Positions 2,155 to 32,512 of a stretch of 32,540 nucleotides of DNA are shown here, in pieces. Position numbers and translations under genes: made by a program. The stretch is taken from NCBI GenBank assembly GCA_003132105.1, contig PKWS01000323.1:1-32540 (forward strand), read 5' to 3'. The stretch is from Desulfosporosinus sp. GTDB lineage: Bacteria > Bacillota > Desulfitobacteriia > Desulfitobacteriales > Desulfitobacteriaceae. Each line of letters begins with the position of its first letter. Position 1 is the stretch's first letter. The notes under the pieces are model-generated. The model made no database searches. It was not told the origin of the DNA and saw only the letters and a program-made list of their open reading frames with translations.

Positions 2155-2601
2155 ATGATAACTACGGAGCAAGCATGTGCAAAAATGCATGATGCTGCAA
2201 TTAAAGAATTAGGTATTCATGAGTCCGGAACAGCTACTTCTACAGCTAGAATTATAGAATACGATCAGCATACAGCACTAAAAGCAACATCAGATCATGT
2301 TGCATGGTGCTCATCTTTTATTAATTTTATTTCAGATGAATGCAGTTTCCCCGGAACTAATTCAGCAGCTGCCATTAATTGGCTGACATGGGGAAAGAAA
2401 CTGAAAGAACCTATTCTGGGATGTATAGTGGTCTTGAAAAGGGATGATTCTCAGAATCCTAATGCTGCTCATGTCACATTATGTGATCACCCCAATATTG
2501 CAAATGGGATGATAAGGTGTTTGGGAGGAAACCAGAGTGGCGGAGTAAAAGTCTCCAGATACCCAACTAAAAATGTGCTAGGGTATAGATCTCCAATATA
2601 G
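2155..2601 (+). CDS. TIGR02594-type peptidoglycan hydrolase (endolysin)
   Basis: The 148-residue protein matches the TIGR02594/CHAP-like cysteine hydrolase pattern: an N-terminal helix with KELGIHE, then AWCSSFINF with candidate nucleophile Cys52, INWLTWGK around 74-81, AAHVTLCDH with His106, CLGGNQ with Asn126, and a C-terminal LGYRSP. These are the hallmark positions of small phage lysins that cut peptide bonds or amides in peptidoglycan. There is no signal peptide, so a holin would be needed for export, and a holin-like gene follows. The ATG at 2155 has AAGGAAA upstream that overlaps the stop of the GH26 gene. Full family length, no damage visible. Confidence 0.85.
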   Translation: MITTEQACAKMHDAAIKELGIHESGTATSTARIIEYDQHTALKATSDHVAWCSSFINFISDECSFPGTNSAAAINWLTWGKKLKEPILGCIVVLKRDDSQNPNAAHVTLCDHPNIANGMIRCLGGNQSGGVKVSRYPTKNVLGYRSPI

Positions 2602-2610
2602 TTTGAACAA

Positions 2611-2682
2611 GCAAGGTGGTACCAGAAAGGGCCGAACGTAGTTAAACCTTTATCTTCCTACTACCTAAAATAAAAGAGGTGT
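2611..2682 (+). other. Conserved intergenic element, copy A (possible structured RNA)
   Basis: Between the endolysin stop and the next ribosome site lies GCAAGG, then twelve bases after its first base CAGAAAGGGCCGAACG (2623-2638). A small stem follows, with GTAGT near 2637 pairing with ACTAC near 2664. The same core with identical internal spacing recurs at 30004-30031, also directly after a hydrolase gene. The ribosome site of the next gene closes the segment. No function is known to me. Confidence 0.45.
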
Positions 2683-2685
2683 TAA

Positions 2686-2850
2686 ATGGACTATTTGAAG
2701 AGGTTTGATCCGATAGAAATAATATTTGCATTTGCAATATGCGCCGCGGGGGTGTGTGCGACAATAAATGGGGATCAGAGTACAATCAGTTTTTGCTTAG
2801 GAGCGGCGGCCACCTATATTAAAGGCAAAACAACCTCTGTCCCAAATTAA
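2686..2850 (+). CDS. Small two-helix membrane protein, holin-like
   Basis: A 54-residue ORF with a good AGAGGTG ribosome site. Residues 10-26 (EIIFAFAICAAGVCATI) and 32-44 (TISFCLGAAATYI) form two hydrophobic stretches separated by a short NGDQ turn. The N-terminus carries KR and the C-terminus is KGKTTSVPN. Two short helices with a charged tail, beside an endolysin, is the usual class II holin arrangement. Holins are too diverse to identify by sequence alone, so the role is inferred from topology and position. Confidence 0.6.
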   Translation: MDYLKRFDPIEIIFAFAICAAGVCATINGDQSTISFCLGAAATYIKGKTTSVPN

Positions 2851-3416: not shown

Positions 3417-3466
3417 GCCCCAGGTGTTTTTCTCCTTTTACGCCTGGGGTATTTTTACCTTTTTAA
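3417..3466 (+). terminator. Rho-independent terminator of the late/lysis unit
   Basis: The arms CCCCAGG (3418-3424) and CCTGGGG (3443-3449) form a perfect 7-bp stem, followed by TATTTTTACCTTTTT. A TTATTG triplet repeat precedes it. This separates the late genes from the control region. Confidence 0.85.
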
Positions 3467-14011: not shown

Positions 14012-14072
14012 TTTACAACCCAATATCATAGTGATATGATTATTCTAGAGTTACAGATTAAAGGATTAAAGG
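14012..14072 (+). promoter_or_regulatory. Early-type promoter with GATTAAAGG leader
   Basis: TTTACA (14012-14017), a 17-base spacer and TATGAT (14035-14040) with an extended TGA in front. The leader has two overlapping copies of GATTAAAGG at 14056-14072. The box GTGATATGATTAT is shared with the promoter near 23157. Confidence 0.75.
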
Positions 14073-14081
14073 AGAGAAATT

Positions 14082-14586: not shown

Positions 14587-14946
14587 ATGCTTAAAGCCTA
14601 TCGAATAGAAAGCGAAGGTATGGGAATATGTTCTAAATCAGCTTCAGCTGGTATCCTTATGAGTTGCGCCGGATTGTTTAAACCTCCTTTAGATTATTCG
14701 GCGGGGGCATATCAGCATTGGTTCACTCGGAAGGGATACCGAAAGATGGGGGAAATGATAATTGCTTTAAGTAAAGCTGGGAAACATCAAATCCATATCA
14801 GAACCGCTCTTATTCCTAGTAGCCTTATCCAATATTTCGATGAATTCCAGGTAGTAATCCTATGGGAAGAACAAGTTAAAATAATTCCCTGGAAATTAAC
14901 AAAAAAGTGGACCGTCGGCTTTCTTGATGATATATTTGTCTTGTAG
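14587..14946 (+). CDS. Hypothetical protein
   Basis: A 119-residue protein with AAGGAG upstream; its leader carries GGATTATAGG at 14564. Mixed helical and strand segments (GEMIIALSKAGKHQIHIRTALIP, FQVVILWEEQVKIIPWKL) with no Cys cluster, signal peptide or known motif. It lies in a run of small genes, each with its own GGATTAWAGG-type leader, suggesting individual translation control or short transcripts. Confidence 0.6.
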   Translation: MLKAYRIESEGMGICSKSASAGILMSCAGLFKPPLDYSAGAYQHWFTRKGYRKMGEMIIALSKAGKHQIHIRTALIPSSLIQYFDEFQVVILWEEQVKIIPWKLTKKWTVGFLDDIFVL

Positions 14947-14978
14947 GTAAGAATTATAGGATTAAAGGAGGTAAGACA

Positions 14979-15218: not shown

Positions 15219-16195
15219 TGCGGAAGAAAGTATCAGAAATAGAAATTCGTGCTTTCTTTCTTGAGAACCCTATAGCTCTACAAGTCTGTAGGGACTCATA
15301 TGCTCATGTGTACTTGCACTTAGCCCATGCTAGTGGCCGAGTAGTATTGCTAGGGATGATTCAGGATAAGGAATCCTCTACTGGGGTAACGGATGAGTCT
15401 CTTCGAGATATTCTTAAATTTACAGTAGAGGATTATAAGCGTTATTTTAAACCACTGGGAACAAGTCCAGATCAGCTTGCACATATCTGGTTAACTTCCC
15501 CCATTCCGCTCACTGAGCGAGCAAAGGAGATTCTAATGGTAATTAACATTGATCGTCGAACTGCGGGTGAAGTAAAGTATCTTGGTAAGTACAATGATCT
15601 GGAGGAAGGAGTCAAGTCAGCTGAGGTGGGAACAGAAGTGGCAAAGGTACCGGAAGAGTTGAATCAATTTAGCACACCTATTCTTACTCAGATATATAAT
15701 GCGATAGTCGGGCCGGAGAAGAAGGTCAAAGGCTTTAGCAATAAGACCTTGGCTATGGATCGGGTAACTAAAGCTATATTTGATCTTCCTGTATCTGAAA
15801 CTCTTGTATCCAACAAGGTACCTACTGAAATTCCTGCGCCCCAGATATTAGCTGAATCCAAAATCCCTGCGGAACCCAAGGCAGTAAAGGTGCCTACTAA
15901 AGAACTTGTTAAACCCCTTAAACTGAATAAAATTGTCAGTATCCCTCTTTCTACAAAAATTCATATTTTGGCGCCTAAGAATCCACACCGGGAAGGAACC
16001 GGTCTCTATGTTCGGTGGGATCTTTATAGTGACGGTATGACTATCGGCGAGGCGCTTAAAGCTGGTATTACTAGGGCGGATCTACCTTGGATGGCTGAGC
16101 ATAAATATATTGAGTTTGAGGTAATCGCGGCAATAGCCGAACAGTCCGAGCAAGAAATTAATAATGTAGAGGGTGTAGAGACTATAGCCGAGTAA
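15218..16195 (+). CDS. Putative DNA-binding phage protein (DUF3489-like segments)
   Basis: A 325-residue modular protein. An N-terminal alpha/beta domain (1-110) is unassigned. Residues 148-190 (LNQFSTPILTQIYNAIVG, FSNKTLAMDRVTKAIF) resemble the repeated segment of DUF3489-type proteins. A Pro/Lys/Ala-rich linker (190-245) follows. Residues 250-305 (HILAPKNPHREGTGLYVRWDLYSDGMTIGEALKAGITRADLPWMAEHKYIEF) look like a small winged-helix-like unit often found with that segment. DNA binding is inference from those resemblances. It is the last gene before a terminator. Confidence 0.55.
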   Translation: MRKKVSEIEIRAFFLENPIALQVCRDSYAHVYLHLAHASGRVVLLGMIQDKESSTGVTDESLRDILKFTVEDYKRYFKPLGTSPDQLAHIWLTSPIPLTERAKEILMVINIDRRTAGEVKYLGKYNDLEEGVKSAEVGTEVAKVPEELNQFSTPILTQIYNAIVGPEKKVKGFSNKTLAMDRVTKAIFDLPVSETLVSNKVPTEIPAPQILAESKIPAEPKAVKVPTKELVKPLKLNKIVSIPLSTKIHILAPKNPHREGTGLYVRWDLYSDGMTIGEALKAGITRADLPWMAEHKYIEFEVIAAIAEQSEQEINNVEGVETIAE

Positions 16196-16222
16196 TTATA
16201 TACGGTGAGGTTATTGCATACG

Positions 16223-16252
16223 GGGCCGGTCTTTTAAACGGCCCTTTTATTT
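16223..16252 (+). terminator. Rho-independent terminator
   Basis: GGGCCG (16223-16228) pairs with CGGCCC (16239-16244) across a 10-base loop, then TTTTATTT. It lies between the DUF3489-like gene and the clamp gene, whose ribosome site AGGGAG follows directly. Confidence 0.75.
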
Positions 16253-16265
16253 AGGGAGCTTAAAT

Positions 16266-20044: not shown

Positions 20045-20246
20045 AACCTACAGTCTATTGGAGAGCTGTACTAATATTATAGTTGGCTGCGGGGTAACTC
20101 TTTTAAGTCAGATTATTATCTTTCCGTTGTTTGGAATACATATTCTGCTTAGAGATAATTTAATGATGACAGCATGGTTTTCTGTATTGTCAATTACAAG
20201 AGGCTACCTTATAAGGAGGTTCTTTACTTTATATGTCAAGCGATAA
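20031..20246 (+). CDS. Small membrane protein, DUF7220-like
   Basis: A 71-residue protein from ATG 20031 (GTG 20022 is an alternative). The pattern MAQTKTYSLLESCTNIIVGCGV, LLSQIIIFPLFGIHI, NLMMTAWFSVLSITRGYLIRRFF resembles a phage family I know as DUF7220: conserved ES..N, a FPLFGI centre, and an R.Y..RR.F end. Two hydrophobic helices with a basic C-terminus predict inner-membrane location. It overlaps the polymerase start by 14 bases. Role unknown. Confidence 0.6.
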   Translation: MAQTKTYSLLESCTNIIVGCGVTLLSQIIIFPLFGIHILLRDNLMMTAWFSVLSITRGYLIRRFFTLYVKR

Positions 20247-22077
20247 ACCTCAAGCTGTATGGGATACTGAGTGTGGGCCTAATTACTGGCTGATTAAATT
20301 TATGAGATTGTCTGATAATGTAATGGCGGAGTTTGAGCAGCTAGAAGATAAGCCGTTAGACTATAAAAAAATTCGAGAAATAATCAATAAATATGAGTTA
20401 ATTGATTTTAATGGTATTAAATATGATGTTCCAATGCTACAGTTTGCTTTAGCTGGTGCCACCAACACCCGGTTAAAGGAAATTTCTGATAAATTAATAG
20501 TAGAACATACCCCAGAATGGAAGCTAAAAGGAGAATACAAAACTGTTCCATTAAACATTGATCATATTGATCTAATAGATTTGCCTCGGGGTAAAGACTC
20601 ACTTAAAACTTATGCCGGTCGATTACATGTAGAGGAGTTGCAAGATCTACCTGAAGAAATGTTCAATAGAGTATTGACTAGAGACGAAATGAATGCAGTT
20701 GCTACTTATTGCGGGAAGGATCTAAAGGCAACAGCACTACTTTATAATCATATATTGCCTCAGATAGATCTTCGTCGAACTATGTCTAAGCGATATAATA
20801 CGGATCTGAGATCAAAGTCGGATGCTCAGATAGCAGAAATAATACTTACTTTAAATTTGACTAAAGAGTTGGGGTATAAGCCTTGTAAAGCACTTACCGT
20901 AGAGAAAGAATTTAAGTATGACATTCCAGAGTTTATAACACTAGATCATGAAGTACTTGATATAATTTCTGGGTGTAACTTTACCTTAGATAAGCTTGGG
21001 CATATAGTTATGCCTCCAGAACTTGATAATTATGAGATCAAGATCGGCAAGTCTATTTATCGGCTAGGAATAGGTGGACTTCATTCTTCCGAGAGTTCGG
21101 TCTGGTATAAGGCTGAAGATGGCTGGGGTCTAGCTGATCATGATGTTACTGGGTATTACCCTGCCACTATACTACGTTGTGGAATAAGTCCTAAGCACAT
21201 TGGGCCTGCTTTTTTAAAAGTATTTAAGACCAGTGTGGATGAGCGTACTGTAGCAAAGTCAACAAATGATACAGAAGTTGCTGATACTTTAAAGATTGTA
21301 AATAATGGATCTTTTGGGAAGCTATCATCTAAATACTCTATTTTATATGAACCAAAGTTAATGCTCCAGGTAACACTAACTGGGCAGCTATTGCTATTAA
21401 TGCAGATAAATTCCTTAGAAGAGCATGGGCTTCAAGTAGTTAGTGCCAATACTGACGGTATAGTGGTGCGCTATCCACTTAGTTTAGAGACTGTGCTAAC
21501 TCGTTGTATTAAGGAATGGGAACAAATAACCCGGTTATCGATGGAAAGAAGCGAGTATTCAGCTCTTTATTCCAGAGATGTAAATAACTATTTTGCTATT
21601 AAGAAGAATGGTAAGATTAAAACCAAAGGATGTTTTGGACCTCCGGCTGTTAGTAACCTAGAAGCAAAGAACCCCCAAGACGAAATTTGTAACGATGCTC
21701 TTTTTGCCTACGTTCAACATGGTACTCCATTTGAGCAAACAATCAGAGAATGTAAAGATATTCGTAAATTTCTGACATTAAGGAAAGTGGAGGGCGGGGC
21801 AGTAAAGGATGGAGTCTACTTGGGAAAAATAATCAGATGGTATTATGGAAAAAACGCTAACGGGGCTATTAAGTACCAAAGCAACGGCAATAATGTAGCC
21901 TTAACCGATGGTGCGCAGCCGCTAATGGCTCTTCCTGTAGATTTTCCTAAAGATATTGATTACAACCGGTATTTGGGCAAATGTGAAAGTTTATTATACG
22001 ATGTAGGCCTTAAACACAGCTTTAATCCTCAGTGCAAATTCGGTAATACTTCATCCAAACTAATCAAATTATTTTAA
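20233..22077 (+). CDS. Compact family B-like DNA polymerase with 3'-5' exonuclease
   Basis: The 614-residue protein has an N-terminal exonuclease: VWDTECG (Asp11, Glu13), IDFNGIKYDVPM (Asp65 area) and YCGKDLKATALLYN (Asp163). The polymerase core follows: motif A DHDVTGYYPATIL (Asp304), motif B KIVNNGSFGKL (354-364) and motif C SANTDGIVV, where Asp408 is the retained second acidic residue and the first position of the usual DTD is Asn406. At 614 residues it is shorter than T4- or RB69-type polymerases (about 900). It would replicate the phage genome with the clamp-like protein and primase. AAGGAGG lies about 13 bases before the ATG, slightly far. Confidence 0.88.
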   Translation: MSSDKPQAVWDTECGPNYWLIKFMRLSDNVMAEFEQLEDKPLDYKKIREIINKYELIDFNGIKYDVPMLQFALAGATNTRLKEISDKLIVEHTPEWKLKGEYKTVPLNIDHIDLIDLPRGKDSLKTYAGRLHVEELQDLPEEMFNRVLTRDEMNAVATYCGKDLKATALLYNHILPQIDLRRTMSKRYNTDLRSKSDAQIAEIILTLNLTKELGYKPCKALTVEKEFKYDIPEFITLDHEVLDIISGCNFTLDKLGHIVMPPELDNYEIKIGKSIYRLGIGGLHSSESSVWYKAEDGWGLADHDVTGYYPATILRCGISPKHIGPAFLKVFKTSVDERTVAKSTNDTEVADTLKIVNNGSFGKLSSKYSILYEPKLMLQVTLTGQLLLLMQINSLEEHGLQVVSANTDGIVVRYPLSLETVLTRCIKEWEQITRLSMERSEYSALYSRDVNNYFAIKKNGKIKTKGCFGPPAVSNLEAKNPQDEICNDALFAYVQHGTPFEQTIRECKDIRKFLTLRKVEGGAVKDGVYLGKIIRWYYGKNANGAIKYQSNGNNVALTDGAQPLMALPVDFPKDIDYNRYLGKCESLLYDVGLKHSFNPQCKFGNTSSKLIKLF

Positions 22078-23099: not shown

Positions 23100-23189
23100 A
23101 TAGAAATAGTTTCTATGTAAAATTAATATTAAAATTGGCCTTTACTGTAGATTTTTGTGATATGATTATCTTGTAGTTGAGGATTAAAG
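23100..23189 (+). promoter_or_regulatory. Extended -10 promoter with operator-like repeat
   Basis: ATAGAAA-TAG-TTTCTAT (23100-23116) is a perfect 7-bp inverted repeat. TTTACT (23141) and TGATATGAT (23158-23166) follow, with a short 14-base spacer, so the extended TGN box may matter most. GGATTAAAG stands at 23181. Same GTGATATGATTAT box as at 14031. Confidence 0.6.
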
Positions 23190-23209
23190 AATTGATAAGG
23201 AGGGTGCCC

Positions 23210-24004: not shown

Positions 24005-24273
24005 AGCTGGTTGGTTGGGTAACAGGAGTATGGGTAAGATATTGGACTGGGGTGTGGGGAAAGTATTTTCTCGGATGGTTTACACCTGTGGTAAAATGCG
24101 AAGGTTGTGGAGCAATATATGAGGATATTACCTCACAACCTTTTGGGTCTCAATGGTGTCCAAATCATTTGATGGTAAGATCTGATGGCAAACGGGCCTG
24201 CTATTATGTTCGATATAATTCCGGATTACAAGTTGAGATGGTCTATGCCAAATTAAAAGGGGAAATAAAATGA
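23998..24273 (+). CDS. Trp-rich zinc-knuckle protein
   Basis: A 91-residue protein with ribosome site GGAGGAG. Residues 1-30 are aromatic and partly hydrophobic (WVTGVWVRYWTGVWGKYFLGWF), possibly membrane-peripheral. VKCEGCGAIY and QWCPNH follow, a likely zinc site with Cys and His. Its stop overlaps the pentapeptide gene (ATGA). Confidence 0.55.
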   Translation: MVKLVGWVTGVWVRYWTGVWGKYFLGWFTPVVKCEGCGAIYEDITSQPFGSQWCPNHLMVRSDGKRACYYVRYNSGLQVEMVYAKLKGEIK

Positions 24274-25103
24274 GCCAAGACTTAATAGAAGGGCCAATAG
24301 ACGGTTATAAGTTAACAGATGAAAATATGGTTTGTTGCCCAGACGGTATACCTTACCAGTATGAACTTGGTAAACGACATCAATTGGTAGAAGAAAACAG
24401 GCCTTTAGATTTGTGCGAGTATGGTTTCCACTTCTGCTTATATCCTTCAGGTGTTTATGTATATAAAAATATAGGTAGAGTTTTTAAAGTAAGAGCCTAC
24501 GGAGTTTTGAAATTGGATAAAACTCCGGGAGCAGATTTAAAGATGGTTTGTAAGGAGATAGAATTTGTTGAAGAAATAACGCCTACAGGTAACCAGAATA
24601 CAGGCCACCGGAATACAGGCTGCCAGAATACAGGCGACCAGAATACAGGCGACCAGAATACAGGTAACTGGAATACAGGTAACTGGAATACAGGCGAACG
24701 GAATATAGGCGACCAGAATACAGGTAACTGGAATACAGGTAACTGGAATACAGGCGAACGGAATATAGGCCACCTGAATACAGGCCACCGGAATACAGGC
24801 CACCAGAATACAGGTAACCAGAATACAGGCCACCGGAATACAGGCGACCAGAATACAGGTAACTGGAATTGTGGTAATTTTCATACTGGTTATTTTGGAT
24901 TGTTAGACGCGCCTGTTTATGTGTTTGATAAAATCTGCGAAGTAAAAAGACAAGACCTCAATATGGTATTATTCTACGAATTGGGGAAAAGGCTATTAGA
25001 GAATGCCCCTTTTGATATTAAGCCTTTCCTTGGTATCCCTAACGCAACAGAAATAAAAATTACAAACCTCCACCAAGCTTTTATAAAGGCGCGTAAGAAA
25101 TGA
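24270..25103 (+). CDS. Pentapeptide-repeat protein with DUF7666-like N-terminal domain
   Basis: A 277-residue protein in three parts. Residues 1-105 (IDGYKLTDENMVC, LCEYGFHFCLYPSGVYVYKNIGRVFKVRAYG, then MVCKEIEFVEEI) resemble DUF7666. Residues 107-210 hold about 20 units of NTGxx (NTGNW, NTGDQ, NTGHR, NIGDQ), expected to form a right-handed beta helix. Residues 210-277 are a C-terminal cap-like domain. Pentapeptide helices can mimic DNA, but this NTG type is not the A(D/N)LXX form of gyrase-protecting proteins, so function is open. A 60-bp block is exactly duplicated (24651-24710 and 24711-24770). Confidence 0.8.
   Translation: MSQDLIEGPIDGYKLTDENMVCCPDGIPYQYELGKRHQLVEENRPLDLCEYGFHFCLYPSGVYVYKNIGRVFKVRAYGVLKLDKTPGADLKMVCKEIEFVEEITPTGNQNTGHRNTGCQNTGDQNTGDQNTGNWNTGNWNTGERNIGDQNTGNWNTGNWNTGERNIGHLNTGHRNTGHQNTGNQNTGHRNTGDQNTGNWNCGNFHTGYFGLLDAPVYVFDKICEVKRQDLNMVLFYELGKRLLENAPFDIKPFLGIPNATEIKITNLHQAFIKARKK
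24588..24872 (+). repeat. 15-bp coding repeat array with an exact 60-bp tandem duplication
   Basis: About 19-20 degenerate 15-bp units of the type GGNNAYNRGAATACA encode the NTGxx helix. Bases 24651-24710 and 24711-24770 are identical, showing recent expansion by four-unit steps. The array stays in frame throughout. Confidence 0.9.
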
Positions 25104-28444: not shown

Positions 28445-28655
28445 ATGCAGGTTACAGAATCGGCCATTGAGGGCTTAGAAAGGCTTTTAACGGAACTAGG
28501 GAATCAGGTGACGGGTTAGAGTTATTCTTTACTCCGGAACTAGGGAATCAGGTGACGGGTTAGAGTTATTCTTTACTCCGGAACTAGGGAAGCTGGGAAA
28601 TCAGGCAAAAACCTTAATAACTACACTTTCCACTATACAGGGCGGAAATAATTAA
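28445..28655 (+). pseudogene. Small coiled-coil gene interrupted by 44-bp tandem repeats
   Basis: ATG 28445 (GGGGG upstream) reads MQVTESAIEGLERLLTELGNQVTG and stops at 28519. If the two 44-bp units are removed the frame reads ERLLTELGKLGNQAKTLITTLSTIQGGNN to TAA 28655, a plausible 40-residue helical protein. The 88-base insertion is not a multiple of three, so expansion broke the gene. Confidence 0.5.
28491..28591 (+). repeat. 44-bp tandem repeat, two full copies plus 13 bases
   Basis: Units at 28491-28534 and 28535-28578 are identical, and 28579-28591 repeats the first 13 bases (CGGAACTAGGGAA). The identity implies very recent duplication. Confidence 0.9.
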
Positions 28656-28875: not shown

Positions 28876-29418
28876 ATGACCCAGGGATGTCACAATTCAG
28901 ATGGTACTCACCTTAACCCCAGATCATGGGGAGGTGGGCGTAAGAAGGGCGGTAAGAACAAGGATATATATCAAGTTCGAGCCGCATTCGATAGAGCCGT
29001 GTTCGTCGGCTGGAATCCTATTGAAGAAATGGCTAGGATGGCTCATACCGGACTGATGCAGCTATTCGATCCGCTAACTCAGCTGCCATATGATCCACCT
29101 CAATTTGTCCCAATAGAGAACAAGATTCGCGCTCGAATGTATGAAGAAGTAGCCTCATACAGTTTTCCCAAATTAAAATCAATAGAATTTCAAGACTCGG
29201 ATAATATTCATACTAGGGTAGGTCTAACAGTGGAGATGGTAAGCGGAGGATGTGTCCAGAGCCAAGAACTTTCTAACAATGGGCCACTAAAAATTACGAA
29301 AGAGATTGAATTAACCCCAGCCGAAACATGGGAAATAGTCGGGGATGATGAAGAAGATGAAGAAGATGAAAAAGATGAAGAAGATGAAAAAGATGAAGAA
29401 GATAAAGAAAAGGATTAA
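28876..29418 (+). CDS. Terminase small subunit-like protein with acidic tail
   Basis: A 180-residue protein. The N-terminus is basic (GGGRKKGGKNKD, as in DUF5681-type phage proteins), followed by helices (AAFDRAVFVGWNPIEEMARMAHTG, ENKIRARMYEEVASYSFPKLKSIEF) in the pattern of many phage small terminases, where a helical repeat ends in PKLKSIE. The last 30 residues are an Asp/Glu/Lys simple repeat (DEEDEKDEEDEKDEED) encoded by a low-complexity GATGAA tract. In tailed phages this subunit recognises DNA for packaging, and the large terminase lies 1.3 kb downstream. No ribosome site is visible. Confidence 0.65.
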   Translation: MTQGCHNSDGTHLNPRSWGGGRKKGGKNKDIYQVRAAFDRAVFVGWNPIEEMARMAHTGLMQLFDPLTQLPYDPPQFVPIENKIRARMYEEVASYSFPKLKSIEFQDSDNIHTRVGLTVEMVSGGCVQSQELSNNGPLKITKEIELTPAETWEIVGDDEEDEEDEKDEEDEKDEEDKEKD

Positions 29419-29448: not shown

Positions 29449-29994
29449 ATGAACATTAATGCTCTACTTCCTGAGATTCAGACAGGAGACTATGCCTTAT
29501 TTCGTGGGCATAGTGTCATGTCAGCCGGTATTGAGTGGTTAGCTAAAGTTACTGACTCCAAGTGGGTAAGTAAATTTGGAGTTTATTCTCATATTGCTAA
29601 GTTCTTTTGGGAACAAGGGCAACTTAACGTAGCAGAAATGTGGGATGTAGGGGGGTATCGGGATCTTCGAGCTGTAGCCCGGCTAAAGGAATATGATGGG
29701 CTTTGTTTCTTTGCCCCAGCTCCTCATATTGTACGTGATAACCCGATGGGTACATTCTTCATGATCAATGAGTTTAGAATCACTCCAGCTTTGCAGCATT
29801 ACGGTAATTCAACACTTGGCCTAGTAGCTCTATCCGATCTAACTAATATCCATATTCATCCCGATTCTGTTCAGTCGGTATGCTCTGGGTTTTGTCAGCA
29901 TTGCGATGAGGCTTGCGGCATGACATTTGATCGCCTATTTGCCCCTTCTGATTATCTGGCTATCATAGACAAGGTTGTACCGATAGAATTGTAG
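29449..29994 (+). CDS. Permuted NlpC/P60-like (YiiX-type) cysteine hydrolase
   Basis: A 181-residue protein with ribosome site AAGGGG. It starts IQTGDYALFRGHS and has YSHIAKFFWEQG with His48, VAEMWDVGG with Glu63, LCFFAPAP, and near the end VCSGFCQHCDEACGM with Cys145, then PSDYLA. The order His, then Glu, then Cys is that of the circularly permuted papain-like fold of the YiiX/YebB group. Family members cleave peptide or amide bonds, some in peptidoglycan. It may be a second lysin or a virion-associated hydrolase. It is followed by copy B of the conserved element. Confidence 0.7.
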   Translation: MNINALLPEIQTGDYALFRGHSVMSAGIEWLAKVTDSKWVSKFGVYSHIAKFFWEQGQLNVAEMWDVGGYRDLRAVARLKEYDGLCFFAPAPHIVRDNPMGTFFMINEFRITPALQHYGNSTLGLVALSDLTNIHIHPDSVQSVCSGFCQHCDEACGMTFDRLFAPSDYLAIIDKVVPIEL

Positions 29995-30003
29995 GATCAA
30001 AGA

Positions 30004-30076
30004 GCAAGGGTATAGCAGGAAGGGCCGAATGATAGTAAGGTAAGAAAAGTATACTACTAAAAATCAAACGGCCTTT
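30004..30076 (+). other. Conserved intergenic element, copy B (possible structured RNA)
   Basis: GCAAGG at 30004 and CAGGAAGGGCCGAATG at 30016-30031 match copy A at 2611-2638 without gaps. Here TAGTA pairs with TACTA, and AAGGGCCG (30020-30027) can pair with CGGCCTTT (30069-30076) around that inner hairpin with one G-U pair, giving a nested two-stem structure. Confidence 0.5.
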
Positions 30077-30099: not shown

Positions 30100-30189
30100 A
30101 TGCACATATTATCAGAACATGCAGGATTAATTTTTTTGTTTGTTTTTATGTCGGCCTTTGCAATTTTTGTTTTTTGTATCACAAAATGA
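30100..30189 (+). CDS. Tiny single-helix membrane peptide
   Basis: A 29-residue ORF with GGAG upstream: after MHILSEHAG come about 18 hydrophobic residues (LIFLFVFMSAFAIFVFC) and ITK. Its stop overlaps the lipoprotein-like gene start (ATGA). Possibly a holin- or antiholin-like peptide of the second lysis module; function inferred from position and topology. Confidence 0.45.
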   Translation: MHILSEHAGLIFLFVFMSAFAIFVFCITK

Positions 30190-30437
30190 GAACCATGTTG
30201 GCGGTTATCTGGGAGATTATTCAATCCCTAGCCTGGATGTTCTTAATATATATAATCCTTCAGGTTATGATCGGATGCTCCTCATTTCCTTATAAAATGA
30301 CAGGTTTTGATGTTAGCGCGACCGGTGGCCAGCAATTTTGGAATAATGGCCCTGGGCCGTCTCAGCCGTACTTTACTGAGAGTATTACGGTTAGTGGGCA
30401 TTTTTCAGATCCGCGGTATCTTAGGGAAAATAAGTGA
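30186..30437 (+). CDS. Small lipoprotein-like protein (spanin-like candidate)
   Basis: ATG 30186 is coupled to the upstream peptide (ATGA); TTG 30174 is a poorer choice. The 83-residue protein has a long N-terminal hydrophobic helix (SLAWMFLIYIILQVMIGC) ending in a plausible lipobox at the Cys, then SSFPYK and a polar, Gly/Pro-rich tail (FDVSATGGQQFWNNGPGPSQPYF). A lipid-anchored small protein in a lysis-like cluster resembles an outer-membrane spanin subunit, which would imply a Gram-negative host. The lipobox is imperfect, so it may be a simple membrane protein. Confidence 0.5.
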   Translation: MRTMLAVIWEIIQSLAWMFLIYIILQVMIGCSSFPYKMTGFDVSATGGQQFWNNGPGPSQPYFTESITVSGHFSDPRYLRENK

Positions 30438-30532
30438 AGGACAAGGTTACACTGCTGGAGGTATATCTAAAATGATATTCCCAGTGAAGGACAAGGTTAC
30501 ACTGCTGGAGGTATATCTAAAATGATATTCCC
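30433..30532 (+). repeat. 50-bp exact tandem duplication carrying a start site
   Basis: 30433-30482 and 30483-30532 are identical except at the first junction. Each unit holds GGAGGT and ATGATATTCCCAGTGAAG. The first copy encodes only a 17-codon peptide (30472-30525) and the second starts the real gene at 30522. Confidence 0.9.
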
Positions 30533-30683
30533 AGTGAAGCAGTGGCAGCATGGTAAGTACATTGCAGTATGTGTATTTAAGCATCATAGTTATACCTGTA
30601 GTTTGTTCTTTGACAATTTAATGCTTCGATTCGCTCAGCTCGGGACAGAGAACCGCCGGGCTATTGTAGTTTGCAGAATATGA
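30522..30683 (+). CDS. Small hypothetical protein upstream of terminase
   Basis: A 53-residue ORF with GGAGGT upstream: MIFPVKQWQHGKYIAVCVFKHHSYTCSLFFDNLMLRFAQLG. Its stop overlaps the large terminase start by ATGA, so it probably couples terminase translation. Its first 17 bases are identical to the first 17 of the gene starting at 32522. No family recognised. Confidence 0.55.
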   Translation: MIFPVKQWQHGKYIAVCVFKHHSYTCSLFFDNLMLRFAQLGTENRRAIVVCRI

Positions 30684-32512
30684 GTAGCCCTTACCCCAAA
30701 ATCCAGTTTCCTTTAATATTGGCCCCACTTTTTGAGCCGCATCTTTATAAAGTTGTATGGGGTGGCCGTGGAGGACTTAAAACAAGAAACATCGCCCAGG
30801 CTTTGGTAATCCTGGGCGCTGCTACATCTATCAGAGTAATTTGTTGCAGAGAGATCCAAAAGTCTCTTAAAGATTCAGTACATCAGGAACTAGCCGATGC
30901 TATAGTTCGTGCTGGGCTTGATGATTATTATCGCATCCTGGATAATGAGATCCGGGGTATAAATAATGGTACATTCTTCATCTTCACTGGTCTTAAATCC
31001 AATAGCTCCTCGATTAAATCCACAGCAGCTTTAAATATAGCTTGGGTAGAAGAAGCCGAAGGTGTATCTAAATCATCGTGGGAGTTCCTTGAACCTACGA
31101 TGAGAACACCTTGGCTATTACCCTGCCAGTTCTGGCCCATAGGTACTAAGTTCACGCCGGAAGAACGAAGATTAAATGGTCGGTGGGTAGATCCTGAGAT
31201 CTGGTGTTCATTCAATCCAGATGATGAGACTGACGAAACATATGTTAAATTTGTAGGAGGAGATCCGCCTAGATCAGGATGGAAGCCGCCGCCCGGAGCC
31301 TGGATATGTATGACTTCTTGGCGTGATAATCCATGGATGCCAAGTAATCTTATCATGCAGAAGGACCATCTTGAGGCCACTGATTATGATGCTTATCTTC
31401 ATGTGTGGGAAGGTAAGCCCAGAAAGATGTCTGCAGCTCAAGTACTTCGAGATAAATATGTGAAGCAATGGTTCGAACCCGATCCAGACACATGGGATGG
31501 CCCATATGATGGAACTGACTGGGGATTCTCTAGTGATCCATCAGCTCATAGCCGATGCTGGGTATTCCAAAGACGATTATATATAGAATATGGTTATTAT
31601 GGCTATGGTGTGGAGAATGATGATCTATCTGAATGGTTGAATCAAATGCCCGATGCAGCTAGGCAAGTAAATAGGGCAGACTGTGCCAGGCCAGAAACTA
31701 TCAGCCATTGTCGCAGGCATGGTCATCCGTTAATGATACCGTGTGAGAAATGGCCAGGATCAGTAGAAGATGGAGTTTCATACCTACGTGGTGAATTTGA
31801 TCAGATTGTAATCCACCCGAGATGTGAATCAGCACTGGAAGAAGCTCGGTTATGGTCCTATGAGATAGATAAGAATAGTCAAGAAGTATTGCCTAAACTA
31901 AAGAAAGGCCATGATCATATAATGGATTCTATACGTTACGCTATAGGCCCACTCATTCGAGGCGCTGTTAAGTTGCCTGGTAACTGGTGGCGTAGATGGA
32001 CTGAGACAGAAGCCACGGAACGAGCCATTTCAATCAAGTACGTCATTGTAACCGTTGATGAAACAACAGAAGGAGCTGCTGAACTACGGGCCGTATTCCA
32101 ATTATGGGGTGTTGGTGGCTATAGTAAGATATTCCTGTTAAAAGAGGCAGGCTGTTTTGGCCTATTACCTGAGATCATGGATGAGATAGCTAAATTCTGG
32201 GAGGAATGTGCCCAGTTTGGCAGTTATGTTAAAGCAGCTAGTGAGTTATGGTGTGAGAGTAAATCAATTGGATCTACATTGATCAAAACTCTACGCGCAA
32301 AAGGTATACCTGCAAGGGAATGGGATCAAGAAGATTTGAGCATGAATGATCCATCCTGGAGGGCAAAGCAAGCTTCAGTTCATCTGCATGACGGTAGGGT
32401 ATATATTCCAGTTGGCCCATGTATAGCTATGCAAGAAATAGAAGGTCTTGCCACTAATGCGTTAACTCTAGCATTAATGGTTTGGCAGAAGAGGGGCGGG
32501 GGCGTAGGATAA
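30680..32512 (+). CDS. Large terminase subunit (PBSX/Terminase_3 type) with extra C-terminal domain
   Basis: ATG 30680 overlaps the upstream stop; TTG 30671 is a poorer start. ATPase motifs: VVWGGRGGLKTRNIA (Walker A-like, 25-39), CCREIQKSLKDSVHQ, NIAWVEEAE (Walker B with catalytic Glu, 119-127), SFNPDDETD (coupling, 177-185). The RNase H-like nuclease follows with YDGTDWGFSSDPSA (Asp280), ADCARPETI (Asp334) and HDHIMDSIRYA (Asp416). Terminases of this class end near residue 430-450. Here about 180 more residues follow (VIVTVDETTEGAAELRAVFQLWGVG, LWCESKSIGSTLIKTLRAKGIP) that resemble a second, degenerate nuclease-fold domain of TIGR01630 type. It packages DNA into the prohead and cuts it. Confidence 0.9.
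   Translation: MSSPYPKIQFPLILAPLFEPHLYKVVWGGRGGLKTRNIAQALVILGAATSIRVICCREIQKSLKDSVHQELADAIVRAGLDDYYRILDNEIRGINNGTFFIFTGLKSNSSSIKSTAALNIAWVEEAEGVSKSSWEFLEPTMRTPWLLPCQFWPIGTKFTPEERRLNGRWVDPEIWCSFNPDDETDETYVKFVGGDPPRSGWKPPPGAWICMTSWRDNPWMPSNLIMQKDHLEATDYDAYLHVWEGKPRKMSAAQVLRDKYVKQWFEPDPDTWDGPYDGTDWGFSSDPSAHSRCWVFQRRLYIEYGYYGYGVENDDLSEWLNQMPDAARQVNRADCARPETISHCRRHGHPLMIPCEKWPGSVEDGVSYLRGEFDQIVIHPRCESALEEARLWSYEIDKNSQEVLPKLKKGHDHIMDSIRYAIGPLIRGAVKLPGNWWRRWTETEATERAISIKYVIVTVDETTEGAAELRAVFQLWGVGGYSKIFLLKEAGCFGLLPEIMDEIAKFWEECAQFGSYVKAASELWCESKSIGSTLIKTLRAKGIPAREWDQEDLSMNDPSWRAKQASVHLHDGRVYIPVGPCIAMQEIEGLATNALTLALMVWQKRGGGVG

Follow-up and report, generated by a model that had tools for sequence, protein, structure and literature searches.

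Activator-dependent late promoters of tailed phages, such as those of the P2 Ogr or Mu C type, occur in a few copies per genome, carry a conserved block 5′ of a weak AT-rich opening region and precede late or lysis operons. Lambdoid phages have module-boundary or linker sequences, which are short, conserved, placed at gene boundaries and common to otherwise unrelated genes; it takes a comparison of related phages at a single place to recognise them. In UAG read-through and pyrrolysine-insertion contexts (PYLIS type), a conserved nucleotide stretch starts a fixed few bases after the UAG. Here we describe a twin element in a phage contig that has a partial likeness to each of these; positions are those of the window, by which we mean the whole stretch of DNA analysed, 32,540 nucleotides. 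With the late promoters the twin element shares copy number, block layout and placement ahead of operons, whereas its blocks in this phage have no clear dyad. Like the lambdoid linkers, it is a short conserved sequence at the boundaries of otherwise unrelated genes, but it occupies two places of one genome and its conservation is patchy. With PYLIS-type contexts it has in common a conserved stretch at a fixed short distance 3′ of a UAG, but it has no stem-loop common to its copies and no conservation of the coding type, and neither an Rfam match nor a phage tRNA gene was found. The reading that we favour, with a probability of roughly one in three, is that a single cis-acting nucleotide element is present in two copies that have diverged, as a putative transcription control site (promoter or activator site) for the genes downstream.

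The core of the element, GCAAGG followed by six variable bases (N6) and CAGRAAGGGCCGAAYG, had been described in an earlier note on this DNA as occurring twice and gap-free; a pattern search bears this out and puts both copies on the same strand (Table 1). No third place in the window matches, even with three mismatches allowed. Both copies are intergenic and share the strand of the genes that they precede, and in each the TAG stop of the upstream gene lies 9 nt 5′ of the core. Aligned from that stop codon over 78 nt, the copies show no length change between blocks, and their identities are distributed unevenly: 4/9 between stop codon and core, 6/6 in GCAAGG, 2/6 in N6, 14/16 in CAGRAAGGGCCGAAYG, 4/20 over the stretch that follows and 14/18 for a block of the form TACTAC..AAAA, which those 20 unconserved nucleotides separate from CAGRAAGGGCCGAAYG. 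A runs test on the clustering of identities gives p = 0.0018 for an alignment that had itself been chosen for its core, and block clustering of this kind would be unlikely under even decay. Mismatches are spread over the three codon positions as 11, 10 and 8, without a third-position excess; by this comparison the conservation is not codon-like, the test being a weak one on two sequences.

Table 1. Coordinates of the two copies, their parts and the adjoining genes in the window.
Feature	Position	Strand	Basis or description
Gene 5′ of copy 1, TIGR02594-family hydrolase-type protein, 148 aa, stop TAG	2155–2601	+	TIGR02594, 98.2 bits (cut-off 70.55)
Copy 1, whole stop-anchored element	2599–2676	+	78 nt from TAG stop of upstream gene; 47/78 identical to copy 2, gap-free
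Copy 1, 28-base core GCAAGG, N6, CAGAAAGGGCCGAACG	2611–2638	+	Pattern search and block identities
Copy 1, downstream AT-rich block TACTACCTAAAATAAAAG	2659–2676	+	14/18 identical to copy 2, equal spacing
ORF 3′ of copy 1, 54 aa, with hydrophobic stretch	2686–2850	+	Stretch read from sequence; no Pfam or PHROGs family
Gene 5′ of copy 2, 181 aa, stop TAG	29449–29994	+	Without recognised family
Copy 2, whole stop-anchored element	29992–30069	+	78 nt from TAG stop of upstream gene; stop-anchored and gapped comparisons
Copy 2, 28-base core GCAAGG, N6, CAGGAAGGGCCGAATG	30004–30031	+	Pattern search and block identities
Copy 2, downstream AT-rich block TACTACTAAAAATCAAAC	30052–30069	+	Block identities
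Hydrophobic ORF 3′ of copy 2, 29 aa	30100–30189	+	Read from sequence; no Pfam or PHROGs family

The genes on either side of the copies agree in part with what had been said of them. Cell-wall hydrolase genes had been proposed upstream of both copies. This stands for copy 1, where the product of the upstream gene, besides its TIGR02594 assignment, matches PHROG 1259 (baseplate hub/tail lysozyme, E 2e-24) and is related to the hydrolase domain of phage tail lysozymes. It is not confirmed for copy 2, where searches of Pfam, PHROGs, NCBIfam, PDB sequences and phage records with the product of the upstream gene returned nothing, and where a structure model, predicted without relatives, is unusable (mean pLDDT 33). 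As the gene ahead of copy 2 cannot be recognised as a hydrolase, the supposed link to lysis genes has support at copy 1 only. The placement of each copy ahead of a small membrane-type protein gene is upheld, with a short hydrophobic ORF following both. The large terminase gene, terL (30671–32512, Pfam Terminase_3 match), follows copy 2 at a distance of about 640 nt.

The contig, whose main genes are on the + strand and which also carries a DNA polymerase gene (20233–22077, PHROG 1252 match), is part of a genome bin of 430 contigs (G000, 79% complete). The bin's genus is probably one of the Bacillota, such as Desulfosporosinus; an assignment to Methanosarcina was considered and rejected, since McrA is absent and the PylS C-terminal genes are of the short kind. 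The same phage is present in IMG/VR as a 62,758-base and an 11,983-base contig, 99.9–100% identical where compared, and the contig overlaps suggest a genome of roughly 68 kb. Directly 3′ of copy 2, at position 30209, both IMG/VR versions carry a TnpB-type (IS200/IS605-like) element (L026 1–1448; L002 from about 1836), and the window contig has the empty site. A Glyco_hydro_19 protein is encoded at L026 4694–5335 (E 7e-8) and a lipobox-like small protein at window positions 30174–30437; we associate this combination with phages of Gram-negative hosts. Such features are at odds with a Bacillota-like bin, and the phage contig may have been wrongly binned.

Several other repeats were seen in the same DNA. 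A perfect 50-bp tandem duplication lies at 30433–30532, with an extra 20-bp copy after terL at the very end of the contig (32519–32538), and the IMG/VR contig has related repeats that continue 3′ of terL. Two perfect 44-bp tandem repeats with partial copies (28491–28605), in a long noncoding region 5′ of the gene at 28876, make that region a candidate packaging or control region. The protein encoded at 24270–25103 contains many 15-nt repeats (five residues, of the N-T-G-x-x type; 19 overlapping repeat windows were listed). A 43-nt intergenic sequence (TGATATGATTAT...AGGATTAAAGGAG) is present in three copies, at 14032–14074, 14928–14970 and 23158–23200; copies are 70–72% identical to the reference copy and end 3′ in a run resembling a ribosome-binding site, and the sequence is a possible early promoter or leader element.

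The earlier note had made its proposal depend on further copies in related phages. None was found in IMG/VR, INPHARED, GTDB or distant relatives, a weak result from collections without a close relative; because none of the searched collections contains a close relative of this phage, the absence of further copies says little about function. Exact and relaxed patterns in IMG/VR returned only the same phage, together with matches within unrelated coding sequence, and blastn of each copy against 50,697 INPHARED phage records returned nothing relevant. A sequence model of the two copies had no match in 79 loci around relatives of the DNA polymerase (about 38–46% identity) or in 40 whole virus records; its matches in the genus of the bin were rejected as weak (E 0.24 to 0.76), the two best lying within one coding gene family. 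Also rejected were eight GTDB contig matches, which were without any flanking features, and the hits of a three-mismatch pattern in 198 genomes, which matched 13 places outside the window, nearly all with three mismatches; the reversed control matched about 8. Nothing on intergenic repeats near lysis genes turned up in a literature search. Within the window, a third copy at 16193–16262, promising in a matrix scan, failed a shuffle test (p about 0.08) and the sequence-model search. That site, which follows a gene ending at 16195, has a weak stop-anchored similarity to copies 1 and 2, and it is the only one with a terminator-like hairpin, GGGCCG-10 nt-CGGCCC followed by TTTTATTT (16223–16252; about −12.9 kcal/mol).

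Taken by itself, outside the stop-codon register, the 28-base match is no better than chance. A zero expectation obtained from the pattern search is unusable, since the argument is circular, the pattern having been built from the two copies themselves. When all ungapped direct matches in the window were compared all against all with composition-aware scores, the pair reached 27.5 bits, other pairs scored alike (28.6, 28.5, 28.4, 28.0 and 27.7 bits), and dinucleotide shuffles of the window (n = 25) contained on average 0.76 direct-repeat pairs at least as good. A core match at the level expected for a window of such length, at a position noticed post hoc, is what a chance similarity of two gene ends would give; even so, we hold this explanation to be improbable, on account of where the match lies. 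For a random pair of positions in the window, the probability of falling at equal offsets up to 30 nt after gene ends is 2.8e-5. When 80 nt at all called phage gene ends were compared in stop-codon register (4371 pairs, one of them trivial, the same gene in two contigs), the copies, at 28.4 bits, were a clear outlier: the next real pair reached 16.0 bits and no pair in 40 shuffled sets exceeded 19.6, and the matches in TACTAC..AAAA come in addition and in the same register. In a gapped comparison of both copies, 0/2000 shuffles were as good. The pair is significant because of its register with the stop codon, as only the stop-anchored comparison gives significance. These sequence comparisons show the copies to be related and anchored at the stop codon, and the twin element is probably real despite the chance-level match of its core. 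Related copies could also be a relic of duplication or module exchange, in which the stop codon and about 75 nt would have been copied on acquisition of one of the two genes, much like the boundary sequences of phage modules, and would have no dedicated function. We regard this as rather unlikely: it would account for a similarity that is intergenic, starts at the stop codon and is limited to two copies in one phage, but not for the patchy divergence, in which near-perfect blocks stand beside background-level stretches with no indels, as even decay does not predict.

Two further alternatives place the function of the pair in RNA or in protein. The earlier note had described stems whose arm sequences differ between the copies while pairing is kept. 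The arms, GTAGT/ACTAC and TAGTA/TACTA, turn out to be the same TAGT/ACTA plus one different neighbouring pair, and they occupy different alignment columns in the two copies; compensatory changes were looked for and none was seen, and no perfect stem of at least 5 bp lies in the same register in both copies. Perfect stems of at least 5 bp number 3 and 4 in the copies, against shuffle means of 0.8–1.9. Minimum free energies of four stretches (z of 0.09, −1.99, −1.15 and −0.39) are ordinary save that of −1.99, which belongs to a longer stretch of copy 2 and in which AAGGGCCG pairs with the downstream CGGCCTTT. Neither copy has an Rfam match at a lenient threshold (E up to 5). A structured RNA, without covariation, unusual folding energy or an Rfam match, is thus unsupported. 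The copies could instead act in cis as RNA at the 3′ end of the upstream gene, to control the small gene downstream in its translation or stability, for instance by way of a protein bound to the purine-rich core. This would suit the location of the copies, between a stop codon and the ribosome-binding site that follows, and the one fold of copy 2 agrees with it; we judge it unlikely, in view of the other three folding energies, the missing Rfam match and the lack of a stem common to both copies in register. Very unlikely is a coding stretch in which decoding of the UAG, perhaps as pyrrolysine, would extend both proteins by related C-terminal tails, FEQARWYQKGPNVVKPLSSYYLK and DQRARV-UAG-QEGPNDSKVRKVYY. 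In its favour, the two TAGs stand in register, the gap-free alignment of the tails has A-R-x-x-Q-x-G-P-N and Y-Y in common, and genes for the PylS C-terminal domain (short genes) score over the cut-off in 20/29 genomes of the bin's genus. Against this, no PylS exceeds the cut-off in the window's own 79% complete bin, a tRNA gene search of the phage found none, TAG is the stop of 13 of the 95 called phage genes, a second in-frame TAG lies inside tail 2, no homologous tail is present in phage records, and the mismatches lack the third-position excess, a weak test on two sequences. More remote still is a version in which leaky UAG decoding would give two unrelated phage proteins a related C-terminal tail of 21–23 residues while the core would be kept at the nucleotide level since it favours that read-through.

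Of the shared RNA or DNA signal controlling lysis genes that the earlier note had put forward, what survives is a nucleotide-level signal, favoured by a conservation that is stop-anchored, arranged in blocks and not codon-like; structured RNA is unsupported, and a tie to lysis genes has support at copy 1 only. If the signal is a transcription control site, it is to be read as DNA. A protein of phage or host would bind the upstream blocks, GCAAGG and CAGRAAGGGCCGAAYG, and the promoter would open at the AT-rich block TACTAC..AAAA, 20 bp further down. From copy 2, the small genes and, behind them, terL and the late operon would be transcribed; copy 1 would drive the small gene or genes ahead of a hairpin at about 3418–3451. 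We count in favour of a control site the stop-anchored outlier score, the conserved blocks at unchanged spacing between background stretches, the shared strand with the downstream genes, the proximity of copy 2 to terL, the lack of codon-like conservation and the lack of a shared stem. On the other side stand the fact that only two copies are known and the chance-level match outside the stop-codon register. A sigma-70 scan (TTGACA and TATAAT hexamers, 16–18 nt apart) found no standard promoter within either copy, which counts against a promoter; intrinsic terminators (a GC-rich hairpin followed by a T run) were likewise not found on the + strand at copies 1 and 2. Two copies with blocks at fixed spacing are the minimum that qualifies as the several copies of an activator-dependent late promoter.

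The case shows how much weight position can carry: without the stop-codon register, which carries the evidence, the sequence match does not stand out from chance. If the twin element is indeed a control site, it would mark genes that are switched on together in this uncultured phage, a small membrane protein beside a hydrolase of the tail-lysozyme type and the packaging and structural operon.
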